Shown in pieces: positions 1,152 through 28,595 of a DNA stretch of 50,261 nucleotides. Under the pieces are notes generated by a model, which made no database searches, was not told the origin of the DNA, and saw only the letters and a program-made list of their open reading frames with translations. This DNA comes from a bacterium (GTDB lineage Bacteria > Planctomycetota > UBA11346), in contig JAIFND010000095.1 in NCBI GenBank assembly GCA_020047915.1, forward strand, positions 1 to 50,261, in the 5' to 3' direction. The position numbers and the translations under genes were made by a program. How positions within the stretch are numbered: position 1 is the stretch's first letter; the number at the start of each line of letters is the position of its first letter.

Positions 1152-1173
1152 GGATTGCCCCCCAATCCAAAGG

Positions 1174-1292
1174 AGGAAGGCGGAAGGCGGAAGGCGGAAG
1201 AATCGCTCGCAGGCGTGACGACGAACGTATCTCGGCATGCGCGCGCCAGCGCGCCGCATCCCTTCCGCCTTCCGCCTTCCGCCTTCCGCCTT
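1174..1292. repeat. Heptamer-armed inverted repeat, GGCGGAA type (copy 1)
   Basis: The left arm (1174-1200) is a tandem array of GGCGGAA. The right arm (1261-1292) is its reverse complement in four units. The loop is about 60 bp. Loop edges match the copies at 2717 and 14848: GCTCGCAGGCG on the left and CAGCGCGCCGCATC on the right, with an unrelated centre. It fills most of the gap between hydF and aspA. Transcribed, it would form a long GC-rich stem. Confidence 0.9.
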
Positions 1293-2716: not shown

Positions 2717-2855
2717 AAAGGCGGAAGGCGGAAGGCGGAAGGCGGAAGAGATGCGCGCAAGCGTCGTCATGGCGAAGCGCGCTGGCGTCCGCCAGCGACC
2801 TGCGCGCGTCAGCGCGCCGCGATCCTTCCGCCTTCCGCCTTCCGCCTTCCGCCTT
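2717..2855. repeat. Heptamer-armed inverted repeat, GGCGGAA type (copy 2)
   Basis: The left arm is 2717-2748 and the right arm 2825-2855, each about four GGCGGAA units facing each other. The 76-bp loop has edges AGATGCGCGCAAGCG and CTGCGCGCGTCAGCGCGCC. These match copy 1, and copy 3 when copy 3 is reverse-complemented. The right arm touches the hydG stop codon (2855-2857), so hydG ends exactly where the element begins. Confidence 0.9.
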
Positions 2856-7694: not shown

Positions 7695-7864
7695 GGCTGG
7701 AGGCTGGAAGCTGGAGGCTGGAGGCTGGAGGCTGGCTGCAGGCAGGAGTATCTGTGAAAAGCATCACGGCCAGCGGGGTAGCGCCGGCCGTGATGCGGAT
7801 GCGTCAGCCAGATCCTGGTCAATGCGGCGGGCCGCTTCCAGCCTCCAGCTTCCAGCATCCAGCC
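7695..7864. repeat. Heptamer-armed inverted repeat, GGCTGGA type (copy 1)
   Basis: The left arm (7695-7736) is five to six units of GGCTGGA/AGCTGGA. The right arm (7835-7864) is the reverse complement with some unit variation. The loop is about 100 bp, longer than in the other copies, and itself holds an 11-bp perfect hairpin (7761-7796). The element fills the hydA-pta gap. Confidence 0.88.
7761..7796 (-). terminator. Hairpin after hydA, terminator-like
   Basis: GCATCACGGCC (7761-7771) pairs perfectly with GGCCGTGATGC (7786-7796) around a 14-nt loop. It lies 80 bp past the hydA stop and just ahead of pta. On the minus strand it is followed by TTTTCAC, a short T-run. It is plausible as an intrinsic terminator or attenuator between hydCBA and pta. 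Confidence 0.5.
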
Positions 7865-11244: not shown

Positions 11245-11247
11245 GGG

Positions 11248-11721
11248 TCAGGCTCCCTTGGTGCAGGCGTAGACCTGGTCGACGACGTCAGCCGCCTTGA
11301 CCTTGGCCAGCACCTTCTCATTGACGGTGACGACAGGGGCGAGGCCGCAGCAACCGATGCAGCGGACCTGCTGGAGATGGAACTGCTTGTCCGGGGTGGT
11401 CTCGCCGGCCTTCACCCCGAGCTTGTCGGAGAGCTTGGCGATGATCTCGGGCGCGCCCTTGAGGTAGCAGGCGGTACCCATGCACACCGAGATGATGTGC
11501 TTGCCCGGAGCTTCGAGTTTGAAGTAGTTGTAGAAGGTGATGACCTCGTAAATGCGTGCGAGGGGCACGTCGAGGTGCTTGCCCAGTTCCTGCGCGGCGT
11601 CGCGCGGCACGTAGCCGTAGCGGCCCTGGAGGTCGTGCAGCGCCATGATCAGGCTGCCACGCTTGTCCTTCCACTTCTTGGCTATGGTTGCGAGATCAGC
11701 TGGTCCGGCGGCTGCGGCCAT
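11248..11721 (-). CDS. hydC: Hydrogenase subunit HydC (NuoE-like [2Fe-2S] protein)
   Basis: This small thioredoxin-like subunit ferries electrons between the flavin in HydB and the clusters of HydA. The product has 157 residues. The NuoE cysteine pattern is complete: CMGTAC (Cx4C) and CIGCC (Cx3C). The start MAAAAGPADL at 11721 is chosen because AAGGAG lies just upstream. The upstream in-frame extension to 11778 lacks such a site. It is first in the hydC-hydB-hydA series and reads away from nuoA, so the 244-bp gap to nuoA should hold promoters for both. Confidence 0.92.
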   Translation of the reverse strand: MAAAAGPADLATIAKKWKDKRGSLIMALHDLQGRYGYVPRDAAQELGKHLDVPLARIYEVITFYNYFKLEAPGKHIISVCMGTACYLKGAPEIIAKLSDKLGVKAGETTPDKQFHLQQVRCIGCCGLAPVVTVNEKVLAKVKAADVVDQVYACTKGA

Positions 11722-11965
11722 GGGCGGCTCCTTGCGGGTGTCCGCGCGCAGCCTGACTGCGAGCCCCCTCGTGGACAAAAGGATTTCTAGGTCCTTTAGT
11801 CTTTATGTCATACACGCATCGGACAACACCCGATCCGTGCAACGATCTGCATAGTTCGACCTGCTATACGCTTTATGTATGTCAGTCTGACGGACTTTCG
11901 GCAAGCACCCCCCGGGGGTATTGCAGACTGCGCATGTCCTCTACGCTGCCACCTTCCCAACTCGT
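11722..11965. promoter_or_regulatory. Divergent control region between hydC and nuoA
   Basis: This is the AT-richest stretch of the neighbourhood. A ten-base motif CTTTATGTCA (11801-11810) recurs as CTTTATGTAT (11871-11880), 70 bp apart. Between them ATCGG and CCGAT (near 11818-11834) form an inverted repeat. AGTC-TGACG-GACT (11884-11896) is another. A TATACG box near 11865 could be a -10 for nuo. The arrangement looks like an operator region shared by the hydrogenase and complex I operons. No regulator family can be assigned. Confidence 0.45.
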
Positions 11966-12406
11966 ATGGACCCCCAACTCCCCCTCGCAGCCCCGACCGC
12001 AAGCGCTTACGGCGCCTGGCTCAGCGTCCTGGTCATCGGCCTGCTGGCCGTGGCGGTGGTCGGCGGAGCCCTCGTTGCAGTTCGTCTGGTCACGCGCGTG
12101 GTGGATCGCATCACCGACTCGAAGCAGCGCCTGAGCACCTACGAGTGCGGCGAGGCCCCGGTCGGCTCGGCGTGGTTCCGCTTCAACAACCGCTTCACCA
12201 CCGTCGCCCTGACCTTCCTGATCTTCGATGTCGAACTGGCCCTGCTCTGGCCGATCCTGCCGCGCTGCCTCGACTGGGTCGGCAACGGACAGGCGCTGGC
12301 GGCTTTCATCGAGATCACCGCCTTCGCCGGCAGCCTGGCCATTGGCCTGGCGTGGGTGGCGGCTGGCGGCGGATTCATCTGGGACCGCAAGGTGTCCGAT
12401 GACTGA
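11966..12406 (+). CDS. nuoA: NADH-quinone oxidoreductase subunit A
   Basis: NuoA is a small membrane subunit at the junction of the peripheral and membrane arms of complex I. The product has 146 residues with three predicted membrane helices. The family hallmark YECGE lies in the loop after helix 1 (KQRLSTYECGEAPVGSAWFR). The acidic helix FDVELALLWP is also diagnostic. I chose the ATG at 11966 (MDPQLPLAAP). No ribosome site is obvious there, and the only longer reading would need an ATT start. The last 8 nt overlap nuoB. It is the first gene of the nuoABCDHIJKLMN operon. Confidence 0.93.
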   Translation: MDPQLPLAAPTASAYGAWLSVLVIGLLAVAVVGGALVAVRLVTRVVDRITDSKQRLSTYECGEAPVGSAWFRFNNRFTTVALTFLIFDVELALLWPILPRCLDWVGNGQALAAFIEITAFAGSLAIGLAWVAAGGGFIWDRKVSDD

Positions 12407-12995
12407 GATCATCAAGCCCGGCAACGACGAGCAGGTGTTTACCACCACGGTTGATGAATTCCTCGCCTGGGGCAAGGAGAACTCGCTGTTCTACCTGCTC
12501 TTCGCCACCGCCTGCTGCGGCATCGAACTGATGCAGACCGGCGGCCCGCGCTACGATGTGGACCGCCTCGGCATGATCCCGCGCGCCACGCCGCGCCAGG
12601 CAGACCTGATGATCATCGCCGGCACCATCACCCACAAGATGGCCAGCCGCGTGCGGACCCTGTGGGAGCAGATGACCGAGCCGCGCTGGGTCGTGTCGAT
12701 GGGCTCGTGCGCGAACAGCGGCGGTCCGTTCAGCAAATACAGCTACTCGGTGCTCAACGGGGTGGACAAATACATCCCGGTCGATGTGTACATCCCGGGC
12801 TGCCCGCCGCGCCCCGAGGCGCTGATCGACGGCGTGATGGCGCTGCGCGAACGCGTGCGCAAGTACCGCACCGTCGGCATCCGCGACAAGGATCCGCATG
12901 TGGTGCAGGGCGCGGATTGCGCGTTCGGATCGCATCCAGGCAAAGCTTCAAGCTTGGAGCTTGGAGCTTCGAGCCCGCAAGGGCCCAAGGCATGA
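12399..12995 (+). CDS. nuoB: NADH-quinone oxidoreductase subunit B
   Basis: NuoB holds the terminal N2 [4Fe-4S] cluster that reduces quinone. The core is typical: ATACCGIEL with the tandem cysteines, GSCANSGG and PGCPPRPEA supply the ligands. It starts MTEIIKPGND inside the end of nuoA. The last 18 residues (GKASSLELGASSPQGPKA) are unlike NuoB proteins. They are encoded by the left arm and loop of an AGCTTGG heptamer element (12944-13044). The stop overlaps the nuoC start as ATGA. The tail is therefore probably a recent non-native addition that leaves the cluster core intact. Confidence 0.95.
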   Translation: MTEIIKPGNDEQVFTTTVDEFLAWGKENSLFYLLFATACCGIELMQTGGPRYDVDRLGMIPRATPRQADLMIIAGTITHKMASRVRTLWEQMTEPRWVVSMGSCANSGGPFSKYSYSVLNGVDKYIPVDVYIPGCPPRPEALIDGVMALRERVRKYRTVGIRDKDPHVVQGADCAFGSHPGKASSLELGASSPQGPKA

Positions 12996-13044
12996 CCTCG
13001 GCCGCACCTGCGGGCTCAGAGCTTCAAGCTCCAAGCTCAAAGCT
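12944..13044. repeat. Heptamer-armed inverted repeat, AGCTTGG type, across the nuoB-nuoC overlap
   Basis: The left arm (12944-12979) is AGCTTCA, AGCTTGG, AGCTTGG, AGCTTCG, then AGCCCGCA. The right arm (13009-13044) is TGCGGGCTC plus inverted units. The 29-bp loop holds the ATGA stop/start at 12992-12995. The whole element is translated: left side as the NuoB tail, right side as the NuoC head. Confidence 0.9.
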
Positions 13045-13654
13045 CGACAACGCCGCCATCGCCGAGCGCGTCATCGCCGCCCACCCCACCGTGGCGGCGA
13101 GGTCGTCCGACAACGGTCAACCCTACCTGCTGGTGCCGCCGGCCGAGATCGTGCGTGTCGCCACCCTGCTGCGTGATGATGCGGCTCTGCGCTTCGACTC
13201 GCTGATGGACCTGACCGGCTGGGATCTGTCGAAGTACCCCGCCACCCCACCGTCCAGCGATCTCGTTGTCGCCTACTTCCTGCACAGCCTGGCCCACCGC
13301 CACCACCTGACCGTCAAGGTGCAAGTGCCACGCGAAGCCGCCGAGGTGCCCACCGTCAGCGGCGTCTGGGCGGTGGCCAACTACTTCGAACGCGAGGTAT
13401 GGGACCTGCTCGGCGTGCGCTTCGCGGAACATCCCAACCTCAAGCGCATCATGACCCCGGACGACTGGATCGGGCACCCGCTGCGCAAGGACTACGCCTA
13501 CCCGCAGTCCTACAACGGCGTCGCCCACCTGCGCGAGGGCCAGCGCTTCGAACCCCCGCCCGCGCCGAAGCCGGCTGCCGCTGCGCCCCCTGCCGCTCCC
13601 CCCGCCCCCCGCCCCCCGCCCCCCGCCAGCGGCGGCGGAGCCGCCGCCCCATGA
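12992..13654 (+). CDS. nuoC: NADH-quinone oxidoreductase subunit C
   Basis: NuoC is a peripheral-arm subunit beside NuoD (30-kDa subunit). The 220-residue product has the family signature around EREVWDLLGVRF, then HPNLKRIM, and DDWIGHPLRKDY. The first 20 or so residues (MTSAAPAGSELQAPSSKLD) come from the right half of the heptamer element. The native protein probably begins near DNAAIAERVIAAHP. The last 35 residues are Pro/Ala/Gly-rich and are encoded partly by GCCCCCC heptamers. Start and stop overlap nuoB and nuoD, each as ATGA, so translation is coupled. Confidence 0.93.
   Translation: MTSAAPAGSELQAPSSKLDNAAIAERVIAAHPTVAARSSDNGQPYLLVPPAEIVRVATLLRDDAALRFDSLMDLTGWDLSKYPATPPSSDLVVAYFLHSLAHRHHLTVKVQVPREAAEVPTVSGVWAVANYFEREVWDLLGVRFAEHPNLKRIMTPDDWIGHPLRKDYAYPQSYNGVAHLREGQRFEPPPAPKPAAAAPPAAPPAPRPPPPASGGGAAAP
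13604..13627. repeat. GCCCCCC heptamer array in the nuoC 3' end
   Basis: Three exact GCCCCCC units plus a partial one encode part of the proline-rich NuoC tail. The period is seven, as in the hairpin elements, but no facing arm is present. Confidence 0.75.
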
Positions 13655-14844
13655 GCAGCGACCTCGCGATCGAGTCCGCCGGCGGCGAGCGCATGCGCAT
13701 CAACATGGGGCCGCACCACCCGGCGACGCACGGGGTGCTGCGCCTGATCGTCGAGTGCGACGGCGAGATCGTCAGTTCGGCCACCCCCGACCACGGCTAC
13801 CTGCACCGCTCGATCGAGAAGATCGGCGAGTGCGTCGAATGGCCGATGTTCGTGCCCTACACCGACCGCGTGGACTACGTCTGCGCGATGAACGCCAACC
13901 TCGCCTACTGCGTGGCGGTCGAGAAGCTGCTGGCGACCGACAAGACGACAGCAGTGCAGGTGCCGCGCCGCGCCGAAGTCATCCGCGTCATCGTCGCCGA
14001 ACTGAACCGCATCTCGTCGCACCTGGTCGCGGTCGGCGCCATGTCGATGGACCTCGGCGCCTACACCCCCTTCCTGCACGGCATCGCGCAGCGCGAGGGA
14101 GTGAACGACATCTTCGAGAAGCTGTGCGGCCAGCGCCTGACCTACAACTACATCACCATCGGCGGCGTCGGCTTCGACCTGCACACCGGAGCGGTCGAGG
14201 AGATCGAGTCGTTCCTGGCGCAGTTTGAAAAGGAAATGATCCGCTTCAACAAGCTGATCACCACCAACACGATCTTCCGCGACCGCTGCGCCGGCATCGC
14301 TGTGATCAGCGCTGCCGAAGCGGTGGCCTACGGCCTGGTCGGCCCCAACCTGCGCGGCAGCGGAGTGGACTGGGATATCCGCCGTGACGAGCCCTACGGC
14401 ATCTACGGTGAACTCGGCGTGCGCGTGCCGGTCGGGCAGGGCTATGCCGGCCGCACCGGCAAGGTCGGCGACTGCTACGACCGCTTCATCGTCCGCCTGC
14501 TGGAGATCAACGAGTCGGTGCGCCTGATCCGCGCCGCGCTCAAGCTGCTGCCGCCCGCTGCCGAGAAACCGGCTGATCCGGTCGGCGGCTTCCAGGCCGA
14601 TGTCGCCAAGGCGCTGCGCAAGCCGCCCAAGGGCGAGATCCGCGTGCGCACCGAGGCGCCGCGCGGCGAGATGGGCTATGTGATCGTCAGTGATGGTACC
14701 AAGACACCCTACCGCGTGCGCTGCCGCACCGGCTCGTTCACCGCCTGCAGCATCTTCAACAAGCTGATGAAGGGCATCTTCTTGGCCGACATCGTCACCG
14801 TGATCGGGTCGTTCGACATCGTGGTGCCGGAGATAGACCGATGA
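13651..14844 (+). CDS. nuoD: NADH-quinone oxidoreductase subunit D
   Basis: NuoD (49-kDa subunit) forms the quinone-binding cavity with NuoB and is related to the large subunit of NiFe hydrogenases. The product has 397 residues. It has the N-terminal MGPHHPATHGVLRL motif with the quinone-site His residues, then DHGYLHRSIEK and the C-terminal GEMGYVIVSDGTKTPYRVR. The start at 13651 overlaps the nuoC stop (ATGA). No NiFe-ligand cysteine pairs are present, so this is the complex I form. The stop is followed after 3 bp by a GGCGGAA element and then nuoH. Confidence 0.97.
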   Translation: MSSDLAIESAGGERMRINMGPHHPATHGVLRLIVECDGEIVSSATPDHGYLHRSIEKIGECVEWPMFVPYTDRVDYVCAMNANLAYCVAVEKLLATDKTTAVQVPRRAEVIRVIVAELNRISSHLVAVGAMSMDLGAYTPFLHGIAQREGVNDIFEKLCGQRLTYNYITIGGVGFDLHTGAVEEIESFLAQFEKEMIRFNKLITTNTIFRDRCAGIAVISAAEAVAYGLVGPNLRGSGVDWDIRRDEPYGIYGELGVRVPVGQGYAGRTGKVGDCYDRFIVRLLEINESVRLIRAALKLLPPAAEKPADPVGGFQADVAKALRKPPKGEIRVRTEAPRGEMGYVIVSDGTKTPYRVRCRTGSFTACSIFNKLMKGIFLADIVTVIGSFDIVVPEIDR

Positions 14845-14847
14845 AGG

Positions 14848-14971
14848 AAAGGCGGAAGGCGGAAGGCGGAAGGCGGAAGGATTGCGGCGCGCTGACGCGC
14901 GCAGGCCGACACGCCCGTACATCCGCGCCTGCGAGCATCTCTTCCGCCTTCCGCCTTCCGCCTTCCGCCTT
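14848..14971. repeat. Heptamer-armed inverted repeat, GGCGGAA type (copy 3)
   Basis: Left arm 14848-14880, right arm 14941-14971, loop 60 bp. The loop reads GATTGCGGCGCGCTGACGCG at its left and GCGCCTGCGAGCATCT at its right. These are the reverse complements of the loop edges in copies 1 and 2. All three copies therefore have the same orientation relative to the transcribed strand of their neighbours. It separates nuoD from nuoH. Confidence 0.9.
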
Positions 14972-14983
14972 GGTGGAGGTCCC

Positions 14984-16372
14984 ATGACCCTCGGCCCCGC
15001 AGTTGATGCCCTGGCCCAGTGGCTATCCGGCCCCGACCCGGCGTGGTGGGCGGTCGGTGCGGCGATCGTTGCCGTGTGGGTCCTGCCTGTCCTGGCCGTG
15101 GTCTTCCCGGTCGCGGCGATCGGCCAGATCATCGAGCGCAAGGTCGCGGCGGCGATGCAGCGCCGGCACGGCCCGAACACCGTCGGCATCGATGGCATCG
15201 TCCGCCTGGTGGTGCGCCTCGGCGGCTTCTTCCTGCCGCGCGCCAGCCAGGACCGCCTGGTCGAGCGCATCTGCGCCCTGCCCGGTCTCGGCCTGCTGAA
15301 AGTCCTCGGCCTCGGCCAGCTCGCCGCCGATGGCGTGAAGATGATCGGCAAAGAGGACTTCATCCCGGCCGGCACCGACGGACTGATCTTCCGCGCCGCG
15401 CCCTATCTCGCACTGACCGGCGCCTTCCTGCCCTTCGCCGTCATCCCCTTCGCCCAGGATCTCGTCGCCCTGGAAGTGCCGGTCGCGGCGCTCTACGCCC
15501 TGGCGGTCAGCGGTGTCACCGTGATCGCCCTGCTGATGGCCGGCTGGGGCAGCGGCAACAAGTTCTCGCTGCTCGGCGGCATGCGCGCCGTGGCCCAGGT
15601 CATCTCCTATGAGATCCCGGTCGGCCTGGCCATCGCCGGCGTGGTGCTGTGGTGCGGCACGATGGATCTGCACCAGATCGTCGCCCACCAGTACAACGGG
15701 GAGTGGTACAGCTTCCTCGGCTGGAACATCGTGCAGAGCCCCTTCCTGTTCCTGCTCGCCTGCATCCTGTTCTTCGGCGGCCTCGCAGAGTGCCAGCGTA
15801 CCCCCTTCGACATGGCCGAGGCGGAGAGCGAACTGGTCAGCGGCTTCAACACCGAGTACTCGGGCCTGCGCTGGGGCATGTTCGCGATGGCCGAATACAC
15901 CGAGATGATCCTGGTCGGCTGCCTGGTCAGCACCTTGTTCCTCGGCGGCTACCAGTCGCCGATCGGCGAGAACTGGATCATCACCCTGGCACCGTGGCTG
16001 CAGACCATCCTGCATGTCGGCATCTTCGCCGCCAAGTTCACCGCCTTCGTCGTGCTGATGGTGTGGATCCGCTGGACACTGCCGCGCTTCCGCGTCGATC
16101 AGGTGATGCGTCTGTGCTGGCTGACCCTGGTGCCGCTCTGCCTGGTCTGCCTGTTCGGCCTCGCCCTGACCATGCTGCTGGCCAATGGCACCGTGACTGG
16201 CGCCGCCTTCGGCCGTCTGCCCGCCATGCAACACCTCGCCCTCGGACCGGTCGGCTACCTGCTCGCCTGGGCCATCCCGGTCGCGGTCGCCGTGGTCCTG
16301 ATCGTCCTCGCCCGCCGCAAGTATGGCCAGATGCATCCGGCGCTACGTGAGCTGACGGGAGGTGCTTCGTGA
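14984..16372 (+). CDS. nuoH: NADH-quinone oxidoreductase subunit H
   Basis: NuoH (ND1) is the membrane subunit that forms the quinone tunnel and links electron transfer to proton pumping. The product has 462 residues with about nine helices. Characteristic stretches are ERKVAAAMQRRHGPNTVG, ADGVKMIGKEDFIPA, the SYEIPVGLAI loop, and RTPFDMAEAESELVSGFNTE with its acidic residues. It is about 100 residues longer than enterobacterial NuoH, mostly from an extra segment near residues 75-100 and a longer C-terminus. The ATG at 14984 has GGAGG 5 nt upstream. That ribosome site lies just outside the preceding heptamer arm. Confidence 0.96.
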   Translation: MTLGPAVDALAQWLSGPDPAWWAVGAAIVAVWVLPVLAVVFPVAAIGQIIERKVAAAMQRRHGPNTVGIDGIVRLVVRLGGFFLPRASQDRLVERICALPGLGLLKVLGLGQLAADGVKMIGKEDFIPAGTDGLIFRAAPYLALTGAFLPFAVIPFAQDLVALEVPVAALYALAVSGVTVIALLMAGWGSGNKFSLLGGMRAVAQVISYEIPVGLAIAGVVLWCGTMDLHQIVAHQYNGEWYSFLGWNIVQSPFLFLLACILFFGGLAECQRTPFDMAEAESELVSGFNTEYSGLRWGMFAMAEYTEMILVGCLVSTLFLGGYQSPIGENWIITLAPWLQTILHVGIFAAKFTAFVVLMVWIRWTLPRFRVDQVMRLCWLTLVPLCLVCLFGLALTMLLANGTVTGAAFGRLPAMQHLALGPVGYLLAWAIPVAVAVVLIVLARRKYGQMHPALRELTGGAS

Positions 16373-16383
16373 CCACCGTCCAA

Positions 16384-16487
16384 AGCTGGAGGCTGGAGGC
16401 TGGAGGCTGGAGGCCCGCAGGCGTAGCCGTGCGGATCGCCAGCGACCACCTCGGCAGCTTCCAGCTTCCAGCTTCCAGCTTCCAGCC
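16384..16487. repeat. Heptamer-armed inverted repeat, GGCTGGA type (copy 2)
   Basis: Left arm 16384-16413 (GGCTGGA units), right arm 16456-16487 (CTTCCAG units). The 42-bp loop starts with CCCGCAGGCG, giving the GCCCGCA junction motif shared with other unit types. It makes up nearly all of the nuoH-nuoI gap. Confidence 0.9.
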
Positions 16488-16499
16488 AGGGGCAATCCC

Positions 16500-17270
16500 A
16501 TGATCCTCGCCTGGGTCAACGGCATCTACGAAGGCGTCGATTCGTTCATTGGCGGCATGCGCCTCACCGCGCGCTTCCTGGTCGAGAACCTGCGCGGCCA
16601 GGGTGGCGCCACCGCCGTCACCCGCCAGTACCCGCAAGAGCCGGCCGTGGTGGTCGGCAATCGCGTGCGTGGCCACCTGTTCAACAAAGCCGAGATCTGC
16701 ATCGTCTGCCATGCCTGCGACAAGGCCTGCCCGGTCGATTGCTTCGTGATGGATGGCGAGCGCGACGAGAACAACAAGATGCGCGCCTCGCGCTTCGACA
16801 TCGATCTGTCGAAGTGCATCTACTGCGGCCTGTGCGTACGCGCCTGCCCGACCGACTCGCTGTCGATGACCACCGGCTTCGAGGTCGATCCGCACCAGGA
16901 CGCGGCGCGCTACCTCTTCCGCCGCTCGTCCGACCAGCTCGACAAGCATCTCGACGAACCGGATGTCGTGCGCATGGCCCGCCTCGCCAACCAGCCGCGT
17001 GAGGGCCTGGCGGCCGACGACCGCGCCTGGCTCGACGGCATCGTCAATCCGGCCGGCGAGCACCTCATCGGCATGTACGGCATGGGTTACTTCACGCCCG
17101 AGCAGAAGGCCAAGGCCGACGCCGAACGCGAGCGCAAGAAGAAGGAGAAGGAGGCTGCTGCCGCGGCAGCGAAGGCGGCCAAGGCCGCGCTGGAGAAGGC
17201 GGCCGCCGAGAAGGCCCTGGCCGAGAAGGAAGCCGCCGCTGCGGTCGCGAAGCCCGAGGCCGGCGCATGA
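16500..17270 (+). CDS. nuoI: NADH-quinone oxidoreductase subunit I (2x[4Fe-4S])
   Basis: NuoI carries clusters N6a and N6b in the connecting arm. The 256-residue product has two ferredoxin motifs, CIVCHACDKACPVDC and CIYCGLCVRACPTD, spaced as usual. The C-terminal 55 residues are an Ala/Lys/Glu-rich, probably helical tail (about residues 200-256), absent from most NuoI proteins. The start MILAWVNGIYEG at 16500 is preceded by GGGG about 7 nt upstream. The stop overlaps the nuoJ start as ATGA. In a complex without NuoEFG, this subunit and NuoB are the likely docking area for an alternative electron donor. Confidence 0.96.
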   Translation: MILAWVNGIYEGVDSFIGGMRLTARFLVENLRGQGGATAVTRQYPQEPAVVVGNRVRGHLFNKAEICIVCHACDKACPVDCFVMDGERDENNKMRASRFDIDLSKCIYCGLCVRACPTDSLSMTTGFEVDPHQDAARYLFRRSSDQLDKHLDEPDVVRMARLANQPREGLAADDRAWLDGIVNPAGEHLIGMYGMGYFTPEQKAKADAERERKKKEKEAAAAAAKAAKAALEKAAAEKALAEKEAAAAVAKPEAGA

Positions 17271-17797
17271 TCGAGAACCTCCTCTTCTGGACCTGCTGCC
17301 TGGTCACCGTCACCGGCGCGATCGGCGCGGCGACGATGCGCAACCTGTTCCATGCTGCGCTGATGCTCGGTCTGTGCCTGGCCGGTGTCGCCGGGCTCTA
17401 CCTGTTCCTGGAAGCCAGCTACCTAGCGTGCATCCAGGTCATCGTCTACATCGGCGGCATCCTCGTGCTGGTGCTCTTCGCCACCCTGTTCAGCAGCGAC
17501 ATCAAGGGCGCGGTGCAGCGCACGCCGCTGTGGCTGCGCCTCTCCGGCCTGGTCGGGGCCGGCCTCGCCGCGCTGGTCGCCGGTCGCCTGGCGCAGATCG
17601 CCATCGCGCATGCCGCCAACCTCGACCGCACACGGTCGCAACCCGGTCAACTGCCCGATGTCATCGACGGCACGCGCGCGATTGGCGACCTACTGGTCGG
17701 TCCCTGGCTGGTACCTTTCCTCGTCGCCGCGATGTTGCTGACTGCCGCCCTGGTCGGCGCGGTGGCCATCGTGACGCGCTACCGGAGGAAGCCGTGA
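17267..17797 (+). CDS. nuoJ: NADH-quinone oxidoreductase subunit J
   Basis: NuoJ (ND6) is a five-helix membrane subunit. The product has 176 residues. The family-typical third helix SYLACIQVIVYIGGILVLVLFATLF contains the pi-bulge segment VIVYIGGILVL. A polar loop before the last helix (near residues 115-145) is somewhat long. It starts in ATGA overlap with nuoI and ends in GTGA overlap with nuoK, so translation of nuoI-J-K is coupled. Confidence 0.95.
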   Translation: MIENLLFWTCCLVTVTGAIGAATMRNLFHAALMLGLCLAGVAGLYLFLEASYLACIQVIVYIGGILVLVLFATLFSSDIKGAVQRTPLWLRLSGLVGAGLAALVAGRLAQIAIAHAANLDRTRSQPGQLPDVIDGTRAIGDLLVGPWLVPFLVAAMLLTAALVGAVAIVTRYRRKP

Positions 17798-18120
17798 GCA
17801 TTCCCGGCCCCGATTCGCTCAGCGCCTACCTCGGCGTCGCCGCCGTGCTGTTCTCGGCCGGCGTGCTGGCGATGGCCACCAGGCGCAACGCCATCGGCGT
17901 GCTGCTCGGCCTCGAACTGATGCTCAACGCCGCGGCATTGCAGTTCGCCGCCTACGGCCGTTTCCGCGCCGACGGCCTCGACCCCCAGGGCCAGACCGCC
18001 GCCGTGTTCGTCATCGTCGTCGCCGCCGCCGAGGCAGCCGTCGCCCTCGCGCTGCTGTTTGCAGTGTACCGCACCAGCAAGGATGTGGATCTGGAGCAGA
18101 CCCGGGAGCTGCGGTCATGA
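17794..18120 (+). CDS. nuoK: NADH-quinone oxidoreductase subunit K
   Basis: NuoK (ND4L) is a three-helix subunit in the proton path. The product has 108 residues. Helix 2 carries IGVLLGLELMLNAA with the conserved Glu, and helix 3 carries the second Glu in VVAAAEAAVALALLF. The start is GTG at 17794, overlapping the nuoJ stop in GTGA. The stop at 18118-18120 is followed by a GGCTGGA hairpin element and then nuoL. Confidence 0.95.
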   Translation: MSIPGPDSLSAYLGVAAVLFSAGVLAMATRRNAIGVLLGLELMLNAAALQFAAYGRFRADGLDPQGQTAAVFVIVVAAAEAAVALALLFAVYRTSKDVDLEQTRELRS

Positions 18121-18133
18121 GGGGCATTGCCAG

Positions 18134-18221
18134 GGCTGGAAGCTGGAAGCTGGAAGCTGGAAGCCCGCAAGTCCAGCCGACGTACTCGGTGCCTCCAGCC
18201 TCCAGCCTCCAGCCTCCAGCC
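18134..18221. repeat. Heptamer-armed inverted repeat, GGCTGGA type (copy 3)
   Basis: The left arm (18134-18162) is AGCTGGA units. The right arm (18191-18221) is CCTCCAG units. The arms differ by A/G at one position per unit, giving G-T style mismatches. The loop of about 28 bp begins AGCCCGCAAG, again the GCCCGCA junction. It fills the nuoK-nuoL gap. Confidence 0.9.
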
Positions 18222-18240
18222 GCGTGGCCAAAGGCCACGC
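18222..18240 (+). promoter_or_regulatory. Hairpin overlapping the nuoL ribosome-binding region
   Basis: GCGTGGCC (18222-18229) and GGCCACGC (18233-18240) form a perfect 8-bp stem with an AAA loop, ending one base before the nuoL ATG. The only Shine-Dalgarno-like sequence, AAAGG (18230-18234), is split between loop and stem. Folded mRNA would mask it, unless ribosomes translating upstream keep it open. Confidence 0.6.
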
Positions 18241-18241
18241 C

Positions 18242-20290
18242 ATGATTCCCGCCTGGCTCTCCTCCGCGATCCTGCTCGCCCCGCTCGCCGCCGCCGTGCT
18301 GACGCTGCTGGTGCCGCGTTCGCGCCCTGCCCTGGCGCACGGCCTCGCCGCCGGCGTGATGGCCGGCTGCACCGCCCTGGCCGTATGGCTCGCCACGCTG
18401 ATCGTGCCGGGCGGCGTGGCCTATCAGGGACCGCACCTGCCGTGGCTCGATCTTGGCGGCCTGGTCCTGGGCGTCGGCACCTTCGTCGATCCGATGGGTG
18501 CGATCATGGCCGTGATTGTCGGCCTGCTCGCGACCCTGGTCCTGATCTACAACGCCTGGTACATGCACGATGACGAGCTGGCGGGTCGCTTCCCGTGGCA
18601 GTTCAGCCTCTTCGTCTTCGCCATGCTGACCGTCGTGCTGGCCGACAACCTGTTCATGTCCTTCGTCGGCTGGGAACTGGTCGGCCTGGGCAGCTATTTA
18701 TTGATCGGCTTCTGGTTCGCCAAGCCGGCGGTGAAGGACGACGCCTTCTACCAGCAGATGAAGGGAGCCGGGGCGCGCGGCATCCTCGAAGACCGCCTGA
18801 GCCCGGCCCACGCCCAGCTCAAGGCCTTCGTGATGAACCGGGTCGGCGACGCCGGCTTCCTCATCGGCATCGGCGCGCTGCTGGCGGCCGGTGTCGCCAG
18901 CGGCGTCCGCGAGCCGCTGACCTGGAGCAACCTCGCGCTGATCGCCCAGGGCGGCGCCCTGCCCGGCACCTTCCTGGGACTCAGCGGCAGCGAACTGCTG
19001 ACCCTGGCCTGCCTCGGCATCTTCTGCGGCGCGGTCGGCAAGAGCGCGCAGTTCCCGCTGCACACCTGGCTGCCGGACGCGATGCAGGGCCCGACCACCG
19101 CCTCGTCGATCATCCACGCCGCGACCATGGTGGCGGCCGGCGTCTTCCTGGTCGCGCGCTGCTACCCGCTGTTCACCCCCGACGCGCTAGCCGTGGTCGG
19201 CTGGATAGGTGGCATCACCTGCCTGCTGGCCGCCTCGATCGCCTGCGTGCAGTGGGATCTCAAGGCGGTGCTGGCCTACTCGACGGTCAGCCAGCTCGGC
19301 CTGATGTTCGTCGCCCTCGGCGCCGGTGCGGCGGCCGGCGGCCAGGCGGCCGGCATCGGCCACCTCTTCACCCACGCGCTGTTCAAGTGCCTGCTGTTCC
19401 TCTGCGCCGGCTCGGTCATCCACGCCTGCGCCGGGCATCAGGACCTGCACCGCATGGGCGGGCTGATGCGGCGCATGCCGATCACCGCCGCCTGCGCCGG
19501 GGTGGCGGTGCTGGCGATCATCGGCGCCCCCTTCTTCAGCGGCTTCTGGTCGAAGGACGCGGTGCTGGCCGCCGCCCTGCTGCACGGCCAGACCGCCGGC
19601 GGCGCGGCCTGGGGTCCCTTCCTGCTCGCCTGCGCCGGTTCGCTGCTGACCGCCGGCTACATGCTGCGCTGGTGGATCCGCATCTTCGCCGGTCACGAAC
19701 GCGACCACGCGGTGTGCCACCACGCGCACGATCCCGCCTGGTACGCCAGCGCCGTGCTGATCGTCCTGGCGCCCTTCACGGTCATGTTCGTGTGGAGCCC
19801 CTGGCTCGGCCACGCCCTCGGCGCGCCGCACTCTGAAGCGCACGCGCACGCCCACCATAGCGCCATGCTGGTGGCCAGCGGCCTGCTGTTGGTCGGTGGC
19901 GGATTCGCGGTGCTGGCCTTCTGGTGGAAGGATGCGATCGCCGCCGCCGCGGCCCGCGCCCTGCGCCCGCTGCACAATGCCTGCGGCGAACTGTGGGGCA
20001 TCGACCGGCTGTGGGATGTGCTGTTCACGCGCGGCCTCGGCGCCGGGCTGGCCCGGGTCAGCGCCGTCCTCGACCTCGGCACCCGCGACCGCCTCGCCAG
20101 CCTGGAAGGCGCCGCGCCATCCAAGCTCAGCGATGCGCTGTCCCTCGACGGGTTGATCGATGGCATCGGCCGCACCTGCCGCCAGATCGGCCTGAGCAGC
20201 GCCGCCTGGCATGACGGCCGCCTCGGCGCCTACATTGGCCTCGCGGCGGTCATTGGTGCGGCGATCCTGCTGCTGGGAGTGCTGCTATGA
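18242..20290 (+). CDS. nuoL: NADH-quinone oxidoreductase subunit L
   Basis: NuoL (ND5) is the distal antiporter-like proton-pumping subunit, with a long lateral helix. The product has 682 residues with 14 or more helices. Diagnostic stretches are FVGWELVGLGSYLLIGFWF, AQFPLHTWLPDAMQGPTTASS, HAATMVAAGVFLVAR and AYSTVSQLGLMFVALG. The Lys and His residues of the channel are retained in HLFTHALFKCLLFL. The start MIPAWLSSAILLAP at 18242 follows a perfect hairpin. A His-rich loop lies near residues 480-545. The stop is followed by a single-arm heptamer array before nuoM. Confidence 0.96.
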   Translation: MIPAWLSSAILLAPLAAAVLTLLVPRSRPALAHGLAAGVMAGCTALAVWLATLIVPGGVAYQGPHLPWLDLGGLVLGVGTFVDPMGAIMAVIVGLLATLVLIYNAWYMHDDELAGRFPWQFSLFVFAMLTVVLADNLFMSFVGWELVGLGSYLLIGFWFAKPAVKDDAFYQQMKGAGARGILEDRLSPAHAQLKAFVMNRVGDAGFLIGIGALLAAGVASGVREPLTWSNLALIAQGGALPGTFLGLSGSELLTLACLGIFCGAVGKSAQFPLHTWLPDAMQGPTTASSIIHAATMVAAGVFLVARCYPLFTPDALAVVGWIGGITCLLAASIACVQWDLKAVLAYSTVSQLGLMFVALGAGAAAGGQAAGIGHLFTHALFKCLLFLCAGSVIHACAGHQDLHRMGGLMRRMPITAACAGVAVLAIIGAPFFSGFWSKDAVLAAALLHGQTAGGAAWGPFLLACAGSLLTAGYMLRWWIRIFAGHERDHAVCHHAHDPAWYASAVLIVLAPFTVMFVWSPWLGHALGAPHSEAHAHAHHSAMLVASGLLLVGGGFAVLAFWWKDAIAAAAARALRPLHNACGELWGIDRLWDVLFTRGLGAGLARVSAVLDLGTRDRLASLEGAAPSKLSDALSLDGLIDGIGRTCRQIGLSSAAWHDGRLGAYIGLAAVIGAAILLLGVLL

Positions 20291-20323
20291 GGCTGGAAGC
20301 TGGAGGCTGGAGGCTGGAGGCTG
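20289..20323. repeat. Single-arm GGCTGGA heptamer array
   Basis: About five GGCTGGA/AGCTGGA units start on the nuoL stop codon and end 22 bp before nuoM. No facing arm is present. It is either a half element or a remnant after loss of the second arm. Confidence 0.85.
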
Positions 20324-20345
20324 CAATGCACCAGGAAGCGCAACC

Positions 20346-21965
20346 ATGATCGGTGCGTTGACCTGGAGTGTCGTCGCCCCGCTGGCCTGCGGCGCCCTGT
20401 GCCTGCTGCCTGGGCGCGCCGCGCGCTGGTTCGCGCTGTTCGGCGCACTGGTGCCGCTGGCCGTCGGACTGGCCGCACTGGGCGACTTCGCACGCCATCC
20501 CGGTGCCGACTTCCGCCTCGTCGAATCCTATCCGTGGGCGGCGTCGGTCGGTGCCGGCTGGACGGTGGGCGTCGATGGCATCGGCGCGGCGATGCTCGCC
20601 CTGTCCGGCCTGGTCGCCGCCATCGCCACGATCAGCGCCTGGAACGAGACACGCAACCCACGCGTCTATCACGCCCTGGTCATGCTGCTGCTGGCGGCGA
20701 TGAACGGCGTCTTCGTCACCCTCGATCTGCTGGTCTTCTACGTCTGCTGGGAGGTCATGCTGGTGCCGATGCTCGCCCTGATCGGCGTGTGGGGCGGCGA
20801 GCAGCGGCGCTACGCGGCGCTCAAATTCTTCGTCTACACCCTGGCCGGCAGCGTGCTGATGCTCGCCATGCTGATCATGCTGTGGAACCGCACGCCGGCC
20901 GGCGGCCGCACCGTGGCGGTGCAGGCGATCGAGATCCAGGCCCACAGCCACGACGGCGGCGCGACGTTGCACGGCCTGCCGGTCGAGCGTTTCAGCGACG
21001 GCAGCGTCAGCGTCACCGTGCCGCGCGGCTTCGATCTGCGGCATCTGCAACTGCAGTGGCGCACCTGGGAGGGCGAACGCGTGCTCGGCATGTCGCTGGC
21101 CGCCTTCGGCTTCCTCGCCGTGCTGCTGGCGGCGCTGGTCAAGGTGCCGGCGGTGCCGCTGCACACCTGGCTGCCGCACGCGCATGTGCAGGCGCCGACC
21201 GCGATCAGCGTGCTGCTGGCAGGCATCCTGCTGAAACTCGGCGTCTATGCCCTCTACCGCCTGGCCTGGCCCCTGTTCCCGGCCCAGGCCCTGCACTGGG
21301 GCTGGCTGATCGGCGTGATCGGCGTGATCGGCATCCTGTGGGGCGCGTGGGTCGCCCTCGGCCAGCGCGACCTCAAGCGCCTGGTCGCCTATTCGTCGGT
21401 CAGCCACATGGGCTTCTGCCTGCTTGGCCTGGCCGGCCTGACCGCCGCCGGAGCCACCGGCGGCATGGTCCAGGCGGTCACGCACGGGCTCGGCTCGTCG
21501 CTGCTCTTCCTGTTGGTCGGCGTGATCTACGACCGCGCCCACCACCGCAATGTCGATGGCTTCGGCGGCCTCGCCACGCCAATGCCGCGCTATGCCTGGA
21601 TCCTGCTCATCGCCGCCCTGGCCGGCGCCGGCCTGCCCGGCCTGGCCGGCTTCGTCGGCGAGGCGATGGCTCTGTTCGGCAGCTTCACCGCCGGCGGCCC
21701 CTTCCCGTGGCTGGGCGCCCTGGCTGCGCTGTCGGTCATCCTTTCGGCCGCCTACATGCTGTGGACGGTCAAGCGTGTCGCCTACGGCCCCCTCGCCCAC
21801 CCCGAGCACGCCGCCTACACCGATCTCGACGCGCGTGAACTGGCCGCCACCGTGCCGCTGGTCGTGCTGATCATCGTGGTCGGCGTGTGGCCGGCCCCGT
21901 TGGTCGATGCGCTGCGCCCGGCCTGTGAAAACCTCGTCGCGCATGTCAGGAGCGCCCTGCCATGA
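20346..21965 (+). CDS. nuoM: NADH-quinone oxidoreductase subunit M
   Basis: NuoM (ND4) is the middle antiporter-like subunit. The product has 539 residues. Typical segments are FYVCWEVMLVPMLALIGVWGG with the key Glu, VPAVPLHTWLPHAHVQAPTA, and AYSSVSHMGFCLLGLAG. An unusual hydrophilic stretch of about 65 residues (near 185-250, including IEIQAHSHDGGATLHG) interrupts the usual helix 6/7 region. It is larger than in E. coli. The start at 20346 lies after a one-arm heptamer array. The stop overlaps nuoN as ATGA. Confidence 0.96.
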   Translation: MIGALTWSVVAPLACGALCLLPGRAARWFALFGALVPLAVGLAALGDFARHPGADFRLVESYPWAASVGAGWTVGVDGIGAAMLALSGLVAAIATISAWNETRNPRVYHALVMLLLAAMNGVFVTLDLLVFYVCWEVMLVPMLALIGVWGGEQRRYAALKFFVYTLAGSVLMLAMLIMLWNRTPAGGRTVAVQAIEIQAHSHDGGATLHGLPVERFSDGSVSVTVPRGFDLRHLQLQWRTWEGERVLGMSLAAFGFLAVLLAALVKVPAVPLHTWLPHAHVQAPTAISVLLAGILLKLGVYALYRLAWPLFPAQALHWGWLIGVIGVIGILWGAWVALGQRDLKRLVAYSSVSHMGFCLLGLAGLTAAGATGGMVQAVTHGLGSSLLFLLVGVIYDRAHHRNVDGFGGLATPMPRYAWILLIAALAGAGLPGLAGFVGEAMALFGSFTAGGPFPWLGALAALSVILSAAYMLWTVKRVAYGPLAHPEHAAYTDLDARELAATVPLVVLIIVVGVWPAPLVDALRPACENLVAHVRSALP

Positions 21966-23404
21966 CTGGGGAATTGAGCCACCTCCTGCCCGAGGCCACC
22001 CTCGCCGTCGGCGTTCTGCTGGTGCTGGTCGCCGACATGCTGCTGCCCGCCGGGCGCAAGGCGTCGGCCGGATTGCTCGGCGTCGTCGTGTGCTTCGGCG
22101 CCCTGCTGGCTGCTGCGGTCAGCCAGCGCGGCAGCGTCTCGGACATGCTCGCCCTCGACGCGCTGGCGCAGTTGGCGCGGCCCGGCGTACTGCTCGCAAC
22201 CATCCTGGTGCTGGTCGCCGGACGCGCCGCTGATGGGCGCGACGATGGCCATGCCGCGTGGGTCGCGCTCATGCTGGCGCTCGCCCTCGGGGCGCTGGTC
22301 ACCGCCGGCTCGACCAATCTGGTCTCCTTGTATCTCGGCCTCGAAGTGATGTCCCTGGCCGGCTACGCCCTGGCCGGCTGGAAGGCCGGCGACCGGCGCA
22401 GCGCCGAGGCGGGCATGAAGTATGTCCTGTTCGGTGGCGCCGCCTCGGGTCTGATGCTGTTCGGCATGAGCCATATCTACGGCCTCACCGGCCATCTCGA
22501 TTTCGCCGGCATCGGTGCGGCCTTGGCCACCGACATGCCGCTGCCGGTACTCGCCGCCCTGATCCTCGCCGGGGCCGGCATCGCCTACAAGCTGGCCATC
22601 GTCCCCTTCCACTTCTACGCCCCTGATGTGTACCAGGGTGCGCCCGCCCTCGCCGTCGCGGCGCTGGGTACCATCCCCAAGATCGCCGCCGTCGCCGTGC
22701 TGGTGCGCGCCATCTCGCTGACCGTGCCAGACACCCTGGTACCGCCAACCGCCTTCGGTCTCGCCCTGGCTCTCGCCGCCATCGCCAGCCTGCTGGTCTC
22801 GGCCTTCACCGCCGTCGCCTCGCGCGATGCCAAGCGCATCGTCGCCTTCAGCGCCATCGGCCATGCCGGCACCGTCATCCTCGCCCTCGCCTGCATGCCG
22901 GGCATCATGCCGGTGGCAGCAGCGGCGTTCTACCTCGCCGCCTACACGGTGGCCAACATCGGCGCCCTGGTCTGCCTGGCGGTGTTCGAGCGCGAGCGCG
23001 GCTCGGCCGCCCTCGACGCGCTGCCCGGCGCGATGCGCCAGCGCCCCTGGCTGACCGCCGCGTTGTGCCTGTTCCTGTTCTCGCTGGCAGGCATCCCCCC
23101 CCTGGCCGGCTTCCTCGCCAAGTGGGGCGTCCTGCGCGAGGCGCTGCGCGTCGGCCTGGGCGAGGCCGGGCGCGAGCACATGACCGTCGCCGCCCTCATC
23201 CTGCTGGCGAGCACGGCGGTGTCGGCGTGGTCCTACCTGCTGATCGTGCGGGCCGCGGTACTGCAGCCCGCCCCCGAGCAGCCGCGCGCTGCCCGCCTGG
23301 CTCCCGGACTGGTGGCGGTGGTGCTGGTCTGCGCCATCGCCAGCGTCGGCCTCGGCCTGTGGCTCGACGGCTTCGCCTCGATCGCGCGCGCGCTCGGAGG
23401 CTGA
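21962..23404 (+). CDS. nuoN: NADH-quinone oxidoreductase subunit N
   Basis: NuoN (ND2) is the proximal antiporter-like subunit. The product has 480 residues and 13-14 helices. Family motifs are LYLGLEVMSLAGYALAGW with its Glu, YKLAIVPFHFYAPDVYQGAP, and AKRIVAFSAIGHAG. It starts in ATGA overlap with nuoM and is the last gene of the operon. No clear terminator follows. The next 11 bp lead into the start of a decayed gene. Confidence 0.96.
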   Translation: MTGELSHLLPEATLAVGVLLVLVADMLLPAGRKASAGLLGVVVCFGALLAAAVSQRGSVSDMLALDALAQLARPGVLLATILVLVAGRAADGRDDGHAAWVALMLALALGALVTAGSTNLVSLYLGLEVMSLAGYALAGWKAGDRRSAEAGMKYVLFGGAASGLMLFGMSHIYGLTGHLDFAGIGAALATDMPLPVLAALILAGAGIAYKLAIVPFHFYAPDVYQGAPALAVAALGTIPKIAAVAVLVRAISLTVPDTLVPPTAFGLALALAAIASLLVSAFTAVASRDAKRIVAFSAIGHAGTVILALACMPGIMPVAAAAFYLAAYTVANIGALVCLAVFERERGSAALDALPGAMRQRPWLTAALCLFLFSLAGIPPLAGFLAKWGVLREALRVGLGEAGREHMTVAALILLASTAVSAWSYLLIVRAAVLQPAPEQPRAARLAPGLVAVVLVCAIASVGLGLWLDGFASIARALGG

Positions 23405-23415
23405 CATGGTCCGCC

Positions 23416-24158
23416 ATGCTCGCCTGCGTGCTCGGCCTTGGCGCAGAGGAACTCAGTCCTGGGGCGCATAACTGCGAAACCGCACCGCAACTGACCTGGG
23501 ATGTCTATATCCCGAAGGCCTACGCCGAACGGCCTCAGGAGAAATTCCCCGCCCTGTAGATCAGCAACGCTGGCTGCAATCCAGGATTCTGGGGGTTCGA
23601 GAACTTTGCTGAACGGCAGGGTGTCCTGATCATCGGCATCAACGATTCGAAGAATGACGACTGGGCCCCGATGGCATGCCGCGCGACGATCAGGTCGCCA
23701 TGCTTGACTGGATGCTGGAATACCAGCGTTATGGCCACCCCAAGATGAACGCCGAAGAAGCCAAGGCAGCGCAGGACGGCCTGGTCGAACGCGTGGCCAA
23801 GATCACCGCCCTGGAATCCATCGCCGAGCGCGCCGCCCAAGCCGACGCCCTGCTGCAGTCGCCGGTGGTCGCCAAAGGCAAGCAGGGCGCCGAACTGTCC
23901 CTCCTGTGGTGCGTCGCCGCCATCGCCCTGGCTGATGCGGAAGCGGATCTGGCGCAGCGCTACCGCCGGCTGGAGACGGTTGCTGGCAGTGAACGCCTGA
24001 CCGCCCTGCCCGCCCCCGAGGCCAAGGCCGGTCGTACCAAGGGCAAGCTGCAGGACGTCCTGACCGCCTACCAGACCATCCTCAAGCGCTGGCCAGACGC
24101 CCTGGCCGCGAAAGACGCCGAAGCCGGCCTCGCCCGCGTCAAAGCGTTGCTGCAGTAA
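23416..24158 (+). pseudogene. Decayed gene, possibly a secreted hydrolase-like protein
   Basis: The frame starts MLACVLGLGAEELSPGAHN, continues LTWDVYIPKAYAER and stops at TAG (23557-23559). The same frame then continues with clearly protein-like sequence (ISNAGCNPGFWGFENFAERQ and GVLIIGINDSKNDDWAPM). It shifts near 23670, and the rest (from 23676 or slightly later; DDQVAMLDWMLEYQRYGHPK to the end at 24158) is in another frame. The first part resembles the start of alpha/beta-hydrolase-type secreted proteins. The C-terminal part is helical and charged, of unknown family. One nonsense codon and one shift with probable internal loss indicate decay. The C-terminal open frame alone (160 codons) might still be predicted as a gene. 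Confidence 0.7.
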
Positions 24159-24164
24159 AAGGGT

Positions 24165-24181
24165 CCAGGGCAAAGCCCTGG
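24165..24181 (+). terminator. Hairpin after the decayed gene
   Basis: CCAGGGC (24165-24171), loop AAA, GCCCTGG (24175-24181): a perfect 7-bp stem 7 nt after the stop at 24158. No T-run follows, so it may be a Rho-type or mRNA-stability hairpin. It has the same AAA triloop as the hairpin before nuoL. Confidence 0.45.
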
Positions 24182-24206
24182 CCGCAGCCGCAGGCGAGGA
24201 TCGGCC

Positions 24207-24336
24207 GCCGAGCAGCGGTGGCGGCATATAATCGGCGCAGCCGATGCCGCCACGGTTTCGGAGCGAAGCGAGGAAACCGAGCTGCGACAAAGGCCGGGGG
24301 GCAGGCCGCAAGGCCGTGGGGGTGAAACCCCCAAGC
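24207..24336 (+). repeat. Multi-hairpin dispersed element, copy 1
   Basis: Hairpin A is GTGGCGGC (24218-24225) with GCCGCCAC (24246-24253), a 5-nt bulge ATATA, inner stem ATCGGC/GCCGAT and loop GCA. Hairpin B is CGGTTTC (24253-24259) with GAAACCG (24273-24279). Hairpin C is GGGGG-TGAAA-CCCCC (24318-24332). The same order, loops and joining sequences (GCCGAGCAG, CTGCGACAAAG) recur at 29143-29380, with paired substitutions in stems B and C. It lies between the decayed gene and a minus-strand gene. No coding potential is seen. Confidence 0.8.
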
Positions 24337-24339
24337 AAA

Positions 24340-28458: not shown

Positions 28459-28476
28459 GCGGAACCAGGCAGACGG

Positions 28477-28595
28477 TTCGGCGTTCGGCGTTCGGCGTTC
28501 GGCGTTCCGAGATGCAAGCCGGTCATGCGGACGACAGCCCAACGGATTTCTGCAGGGCCTGCGCAACGCCGCACGTCGAACGCCGAACGCCGAAC
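28477..28595. repeat. Heptamer-armed inverted repeat, TTCGGCG type
   Basis: The left arm (28477-28507) is four TTCGGCG units plus TTC. The right arm (28574-28595) is about three CGAACGC/GAACGCC units. The loop is about 66 bp. It lies between sixA and the VKOR-like gene. The same unit occurs inside hydE at 4853. Confidence 0.9.

Follow-up and report, generated by a model that had tools for sequence, protein, structure and literature searches.

The stretch of DNA discussed here, called the window below, covers positions 1 to 50,261 of contig JAIFND010000095.1 (assembly GCA_020047915.1) from a bacterium of the Planctomycetota lineage UBA11346, and it carries a nuo (complex I) operon whose gaps between genes are made up almost entirely of a heptamer element and a short leader. 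We read these heptamer elements as lineage-specific repeats that were inserted into overlapping stop and start codons, splitting the 4-bp overlap motif ATGA or GTGA (hereafter RTGA) and keeping one copy of it on each side; our probability for this reading is roughly 0.78. In relatives of the same genus the genes now separated by the elements overlap, in the window RTGA stands at both ends of each of the four nuo gaps, and elements of the same layout recur across the genome.

Heptamer elements in the nuo operon

The operon consists of 11 genes (11966-23404), identified by Pfam or, for nuoA, nuoC and nuoK, by reading frame and gene order:

11966-12406, nuoA (frame and order)
12399-12995, nuoB (Pfam)
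12992-13654, nuoC (frame and order)
13651-14844, nuoD (Pfam)
14984-16372, nuoH (Pfam)
16500-17270, nuoI (Pfam)
17267-17797, nuoJ (Pfam)
17794-18120, nuoK (frame and order)
18242-20290, nuoL (Pfam)
20346-21965, nuoM (Pfam)
21962-23404, nuoN (Pfam)

The genes nuoE, nuoF and nuoG are missing from the operon, which leaves an 11-subunit complex I gene set. Neighbouring genes overlap by 8 bp at A-B and by 4 bp each at B-C, C-D, I-J, J-K and M-N, and they are separated by 139 nt at D-H (14845-14983), 127 nt at H-I (16373-16499), 121 nt at K-L (18121-18241) and 55 nt at L-M (20291-20345). An earlier, sequence-only reading of this stretch had listed the overlaps as 4-8 bp, which proved right when checked against the sequence, and had described the four gaps as almost entirely a heptamer element plus a ribosome site. 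This is indeed how they are built: each holds a period-7 array or an inverted pair of arrays, followed by a leader of about 12-22 nt. The same reading took B-C and C-D for plain overlaps. They are 4-bp overlaps, but not free of heptamers, since both carry translated arrays; heptamers thus occur at 6 of the 10 nuo junctions, at four in gaps and at two as coding extensions.

The heptamers belong to several families, namely F1 (AAGGCGG), F2 (GCTGGAG/A), F3 (GTTCGGC), F4 (AGCTTNR), F5 (CGGGGGG) and F6 (GGGGTTA). The elements of the operon and the sequences around them are as follows, all on the plus strand:

12944..13045, +, B-C element, F4 (AGCTTNR) inverted pair with the ATGA overlap (12992-12995) in its loop
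13593..13633, +, C-D element, F5 (CCCCCCG) single array a short way 5' of the C-D ATGA overlap
14841..14844, +, left ATGA of D-H (nuoD stop); right copy at 14984-14987 (nuoH start)
14849..14971, +, D-H element, F1 (AAGGCGG), arms 14849-14880 and 14941-14971, loop of about 60 nt
14972..14983, +, D-H leader GGTGGAGGTCCC with a ribosome site, preceding the nuoH ATGA
16369..16372, +, left GTGA of H-I (nuoH stop); right copy ATGA at 16500-16503 (nuoI start)
16383..16487, +, H-I element, F2, left arm GCTGGAG x4, right arm GCTGGAA x4
16488..16499, +, H-I leader AGGGGCAATCCC, which includes GGGGCAAT, preceding the nuoI ATGA
18117..18120, +, left ATGA of K-L (nuoK stop); right copy at 18242-18245 (nuoL start)
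18133..18221, +, K-L element, F2, left arm GCTGGAA x4, right arm GCTGGAG x4
18223..18239, +, extra 7-bp hairpin CGTGGCC-AAA-GGCCACG directly 5' of the nuoL ATG (18242)
20287..20290, +, left ATGA of L-M (nuoL stop); right copy at 20346-20349 (nuoM start)
20289..20323, +, L-M element, F2, one arm only, no local stem

The B-C pair is translated and supplies the final residues of NuoB together with about 18 N-terminal residues of NuoC that are absent from relatives; the same-genus genome G001 has a plain ATGA overlap there. The C-D array encodes part of a proline-rich NuoC tail and is absent in G003, another genome of the genus. The extra hairpin in front of nuoL is perfect, ends 2 nt before the ATG and encloses bases that resemble a ribosome site. 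An in-frame GTG upstream (18224) offers nuoL an alternative start, and it is the one chosen by the script with which we called genes; these calls are approximate and reproduced 10 of the 11 nuo genes.

Insertion into overlapping genes

The genome that carries the window (G000) is a metagenome-derived assembly of 248 contigs, 79.8% complete. It was compared with G001, G002 and G003, all draft genomes of the same genus, and with G005 and G016, more distant relatives within the family. In a NuoH tree the phylum mates of G000 group around a named member of the Planctomycetota (L046 next to G045, 100/99); Poribacteria fall there as well, so the tree by itself makes Planctomycetota no more than a likely placement. 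G002 and G003 have the same nuo order and, as far as their contigs reach, no heptamers at D-H, H-I, K-L and L-M. At D-H the relatives show a 4-bp overlap (CGATGAAT in G003, ATGA) or a 1-bp overlap (GGTGATGG in G002, TGATG), and at H-I likewise overlaps of 1 or 4 bp (GCGTGATGATCC in G002, GCATGATCC in G003). The overlaps at K-L are of 4 bp (TCGTGATTCCC in G002, GTGA; GCATGATTCC in G001, ATGA), as is the one at L-M, where G002 and G001 share TGGTGATCGG (GTGA). At D-H the genes of G001 stand 14 nt apart, with a ribosome site between them; G005 and G016 nevertheless overlap there, and the overlap is therefore the likelier ancestral state.

In the window, the order at each of the four gaps is RTGA, element, leader, RTGA. 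Such a pair of motifs is to be expected if a 4-bp overlap was split and each gene kept one copy. The sequence-only reading had proposed that the elements were inserted between genes once tightly packed, and the comparison of junction lengths bears this out: the relatives overlap without heptamers, RTGA now flanks each element, and the same gaps filled with unrelated sequence were not seen in relatives at the four nuo gaps. Three further sites have a single RTGA overlap in a relative and RTGA on both flanks of the element here, namely L242:10168-10342 and two in the window:

1170..1292, -, F1 element flanked on each side by ATGAACA, the two neighbouring genes being on the minus strand; they overlap by ATGA in G003
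2718..2855, -, F1 element flanked on each side by ATGA, again with two neighbours on the minus strand; they overlap in G002/G003

The same signature was counted more widely. Our genome-wide statistics cover 1.21 of the 3.97 Mb of G000 (about 30%), and part of the sampled contigs were picked for F1 hits or for Y1 transposase-like genes. We call an element junction compact if no more than 45 nt of its gap lies outside the element. At these junctions RTGA is present at both the stop and the start in 19 of 45 cases, as compared with 5 of 208 co-directional gaps of 0-100 nt (Fisher p=3e-12) and 8 of 137 longer ordinary gaps. The figure is 13 of 37 (p=1.4e-8) when the window itself is excluded.

The duplication may have arisen as part of the insertion event, and selection may also have filtered for events that preserve RTGA. 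An insertion that fails to preserve both codons damages a gene, so selection alone would pick the RTGA-preserving events; as this suffices for the pattern, we do not invoke a transposase that cuts with a 4-bp stagger.

Several observations weigh against our reading. At L225:3077-3176 the ancestral start was lost, a new start is used and the duplication is absent, and the elements at B-C and L159:16753-16925 have become part of the coding sequence. The length of the duplication varies beyond RTGA, being 4 bp in most cases and 8 bp at window position 1160; a common-substring test for a longer constant duplication was only borderline (p=0.085), and we have not adopted a constant target duplication longer than RTGA. 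The ends of the elements are non-uniform, and a transposon search covering only Y1 genes linked no transposase to them. The combination of both RTGA copies with an overlapping relative is found at only 7 junctions, and some orthologous gaps in the relatives hold other repeats, so that a clean empty site is not always visible.

Anatomy and spread of the elements

The period-7 elements are not the product of chance. A scan with uniform settings over 632 kb of G000 found 89 period-7 arrays, as compared with 0-6 for periods 4-6 and 8-13; there were 58 arrays at period 14, which are harmonics, and 5 at period 15. At a slightly looser setting, the 1.21 Mb sample contains 263 arrays, which form 87 inverted pairs and 89 singles. 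Of the pairs, 80/87 lie between genes, against 12.5% for random placements, and of the singles 65/89 do. A pair has two arms of about four tandem heptamers each and a loop mostly of 20-110 nt. Four is the modal number of heptamers per arm in F1-F4 (44/80, 30/36, 38/55 and 32/50 arms, respectively), and some arrays are longer, with 8-13 units. All 84 pairs assigned to F1-F4 have the arm polarity X..X', and this uniformity indicates that the pairs are genuine units. Within an arm one heptamer often recurs unchanged, as though a single unit had been copied, and the arms of the H-I and K-L elements mirror each other's F2 variants.

The elements sit close to the genes on either side, with a median of 12 nt from stop to array and 18 nt from array to start; at 37 of 58 pair junctions, no more than 40 nt of the gap lies outside the element. 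The most enriched 8-mer of the genome sample is GGGGCAAT (41 occurrences vs 16.6 expected), which is found directly outside arrays of F1, F2, F3, F5 and F6 and has an array just upstream in 34 of its 82 occurrences. In the form GGGGCAATCC(C)-ATG it also serves as the leader of some genes downstream, nuoI among them. Ribosome sites are no more frequent after elements (25/45) than after 4-bp overlaps (50/89).

Elements are present at 19.4% of co-directional junctions and 8.8% of divergent ones (p=0.0025). The sequence-only reading placed them at chosen points of one mRNA; with the same layout at 19% of co-directional junctions genome-wide, this is not supported as a peculiarity of nuo. The excess in nuo over the genome rate is modest and post hoc (P=0.11 for 4/10 junctions, 0.005 for 6/10, the latter counted post hoc), and special targeting of nuo was rejected.

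Among relatives the families are patchy. The F1 pattern has 392 hits in G000, 0, 9 and 2 in the three same-genus genomes, and 4 in G058, the only one of the other 55 genomes with any. F4 has 213 hits in G000, none in the three genomes of the genus and 31 in G017, which belongs to another genus. F3 has 383 hits in G000, 0, 0 and 23 within the genus (the 23 in G003), 109 in G017 and 33 in G058. The same heptamers recur in some distant relatives. G002 and G003 carry heptamers of other kinds, and the repeat found at some orthologous gaps differs from species to species. One sister species has long one-sided arrays.

Alternative explanations

The elements could instead be hairpins kept as RNA-level punctuation of operons, serving mRNA decay, processing or subunit ratios like the repetitive extragenic palindromic (REP) sequences and bacterial interspersed mosaic elements (BIME) of E. 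coli. We consider this rather unlikely as the explanation. The sense-strand folds of the paired elements are indeed very stable (-71 to -112 kcal/mol, 6-11 standard deviations below shuffled sequences), and the preference for co-directional over divergent junctions also fits. However, arms of the same element are no more complementary to each other than arms taken from different ones (p 0.33, 0.98, 0.99 and 0.37 for F1-F4 by permutation), so there is no visible selection on exact RNA pairing, and compensatory change between arms, looked for in F1-F4 as evidence of RNA structure, was rejected as none was found. Besides, the L-M element is one-armed and stemless, half of the elements are single, and the difference between co-directional and convergent junctions is not significant (p=0.17). 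Polymerase slippage, which would expand simple sequence in place wherever sequence is unconstrained and the gap came first, is quite improbable as the origin of the elements. It would account for the frequent homogenisation within arms (at H-I, all GCTGGAG on the left and all GCTGGAA on the right), the arrays of 8-13 units and the one-sided arrays of the sister species; yet there was no gap to expand in relatives at D-H (G002, G003) or at H-I, K-L and L-M (G002), and the four-heptamer mode, the fixed inverted polarity and the outer motif shared by unrelated families need more than slippage. Slippage probably reshapes the arms after insertion.

REP sequences and the REPINs and BIMEs built from them are short palindromic intergenic units in inverted pairs, with possible effects on mRNA, and are moved by REP-associated tyrosine transposases (RAYT). 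The inverted-pair layout and intergenic placement of the heptamer elements are REPIN-like, and the genome encodes Y1 transposase-like genes, but mobilisation by RAYT is very improbable. REP units are not tandem heptamers. No Y1 gene has heptamer arrays on both sides, and the nearest array lies to one side only, at a distance of a few hundred bp. The Y1 genes of G000:C154 and G003:C8 are flanked on both sides by a different repeat (GCGGGCGCC..GCCCG). GTAG/CGTC tags are not general at the arm ends either, with GACG or CGTC within 12 nt of 18/80 F1 arms and rarely in F2-F4. A RAYT/REPIN origin was rejected on the ground that the repeat flanking the Y1 genes of this genus is another sequence. An artefact of metagenome assembly would be in keeping with the fragmented state of G000 and with at least one contig (L144) that ends in an array; it is nonetheless extremely improbable, as the elements lie in distinct, unique contexts, two of them continue the reading frame within nuo genes, and one contig has two distinct versions of F2 only 1.7 kb apart.

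Possible consequences for translation and mRNA

Under the insertion reading, the elements would be short non-coding repeats that spread by insertion in this genome and survived best at gene junctions. An insertion at an operon junction would split the ATGA or GTGA overlap and leave one RTGA copy per side, by which both genes keep their stop and start. The ancestral chain of nuo overlaps would in this way have been broken into A-B-C-D, H, I-J-K, L and M-N. Stop and start codons that overlap in this way (ATGA, TGATG) have been investigated as points of translational coupling (PMC6728339). The overlap before H, I, L and M is lost, as a direct consequence of the anatomy; what this does to the output of the four genes can be proposed from the sequence, in that they would lose the termination-reinitiation handover and their translation would have to start from the new leader.

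The nuo mRNA may also contain three stable hairpins. Stable stems had been predicted for all four gaps; they are found at D-H, H-I and K-L, and not at L-M, where the single arm forms no stem (fold z = +1.5). TTTT follows within 12 nt 3' of the second arm in only 3 of 58 cases; because T runs are nearly absent, the elements are not ordinary intrinsic terminators, and that role was rejected. Rfam gave no match above the gathering score in window positions 11000-24500, so a known RNA family was rejected for this region.

A more far-reaching proposal is doubtful, and we would bet against it: a single process may make four-heptamer cassettes with inverted arms out of unrelated heptamers, add the shared outer end GGGGCAATCC, which could act as a ribosome site, and install the cassettes at RTGA overlaps with an exact copy on each side. 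Such a cassette-building process, if real, would convert translationally fused gene pairs to independent initiation across the genome.

Relation to known repeats

Short tandemly repeated repetitive (STRR) heptamers of cyanobacteria, known also through citations in PMC4692102, are intergenic direct heptamer repeats of several families with a patchy distribution. The elements described here show the traits of heptameric simple-sequence repeats, with about four tandem 7-nt units per array, intergenic placement and inverted pairs in convergent orientation. The closest known kind is the GGGAATC heptamer of Xanthomonas, which occurs mostly as four units, forms 70-75 inverted pairs per genome, is intergenic, favours co-directional neighbours and is rare between divergent genes (PMC4692102). 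The period, the four-unit mode, the many inverted pairs and the placement are common to both. The Xanthomonas repeats, however, are of one heptamer type with G-quadruplex potential, and 83% of their sites are common to two species; here there are at least four families, relatives of the same genus lack the elements at the checked sites, and RTGA overlaps have been split so that either side holds one copy. The authors of that study tied the four-unit size to G-quadruplexes (PMC4692102). The heptamers of F3 and F4 have no run of three or more G, as a quadruplex would require; such runs are found only in F5 and F6; since F3 and F4 have the same size and layout, the quadruplex explanation cannot be general.

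The TAACTGA repeats of Beggiatoaceae are likewise intergenic heptamers of several families, patchy across species (PMC4679880). Nearly all of them are direct repeats, with 169 direct sets against a single indirect one, and the abstract of that paper mentions neither hairpin pairs nor split overlaps. BrickBuilt of Porphyromonas gingivalis, a miniature inverted-repeat transposable element (MITE), is also a short intergenic non-autonomous unit with tandem repeats inside and inverted ends; it has one 23-nt minisatellite, 19 copies, and lies 49-591 nt from genes (PMC4596501). In the elements described here, by contrast, the inverted repeat consists of the heptamer arms, which stand about 10-20 nt away from stop and start. 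Some F1 copies do sit within a larger unit with ends CAATGGCGTTGCGTTAAGG. With regard to a target duplication of constant length, which is a trait of MITEs, RTGA flanks the element at the 19 of 45 compact junctions given above, with no constant length beyond RTGA.

The paired intergenic heptamers of Xanthomonas have so far been known without an origin or a function, and the intact overlaps of the relatives examined here now show insertion and its site. Relatives with and without elements form natural before/after pairs for the role of the overlap in translating a costly complex I operon, and RTGA on both sides is a handle, taken from sequence alone, on past insertions.

Further elements and repeats

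Two more elements lie in the window, neither assigned to a strand:

7695..7864, F2 pair with an 88-nt loop; the gap is wide in relatives too
28476..28595, F3 (GTTCGGC) pair

The larger, possibly mobile unit with ends CAATGGCGTTGCGTTAAGG and F1 heptamer arms inside was seen at L139:8639, L141:19116, L142:17845, L224:8515 and L258:3814. Intergenic F6 arrays (CCCTAAC) ending in GGGGCAATG are repeated several times in a row at L245, L246 and L159:17661-17820. At L159:16753-16925, in-frame F2 heptamers stand beside a GTGA overlap and lengthen the downstream protein by about 13 residues at its N-terminus; in G002 the genes simply overlap by ATGA. The RAYT-associated REP of the genus (GCGGGCGCC..GCCCG), which stands on either side of the Y1 genes of G000:C154 and G003:C8 at 96-98% identity, is also present at L159:8131-8179, L210 and L213.

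A 64-bp hairpin repeat (GCCGAGCAGYGGTGGCGGCAT..ATGCCGCCACGG) is found at window positions 24202-24265 and 29165-29228 and also in L174. G002 has a relative of this repeat at the junction that holds the F1 element 1170-1292 in G000, and this copy is flanked by a direct duplication of 34 bp, start codon included. A repeat of about 125 bp (L159:13799-13925) matches many sites in G002, where these often stand in tandem, and several sites in G003.

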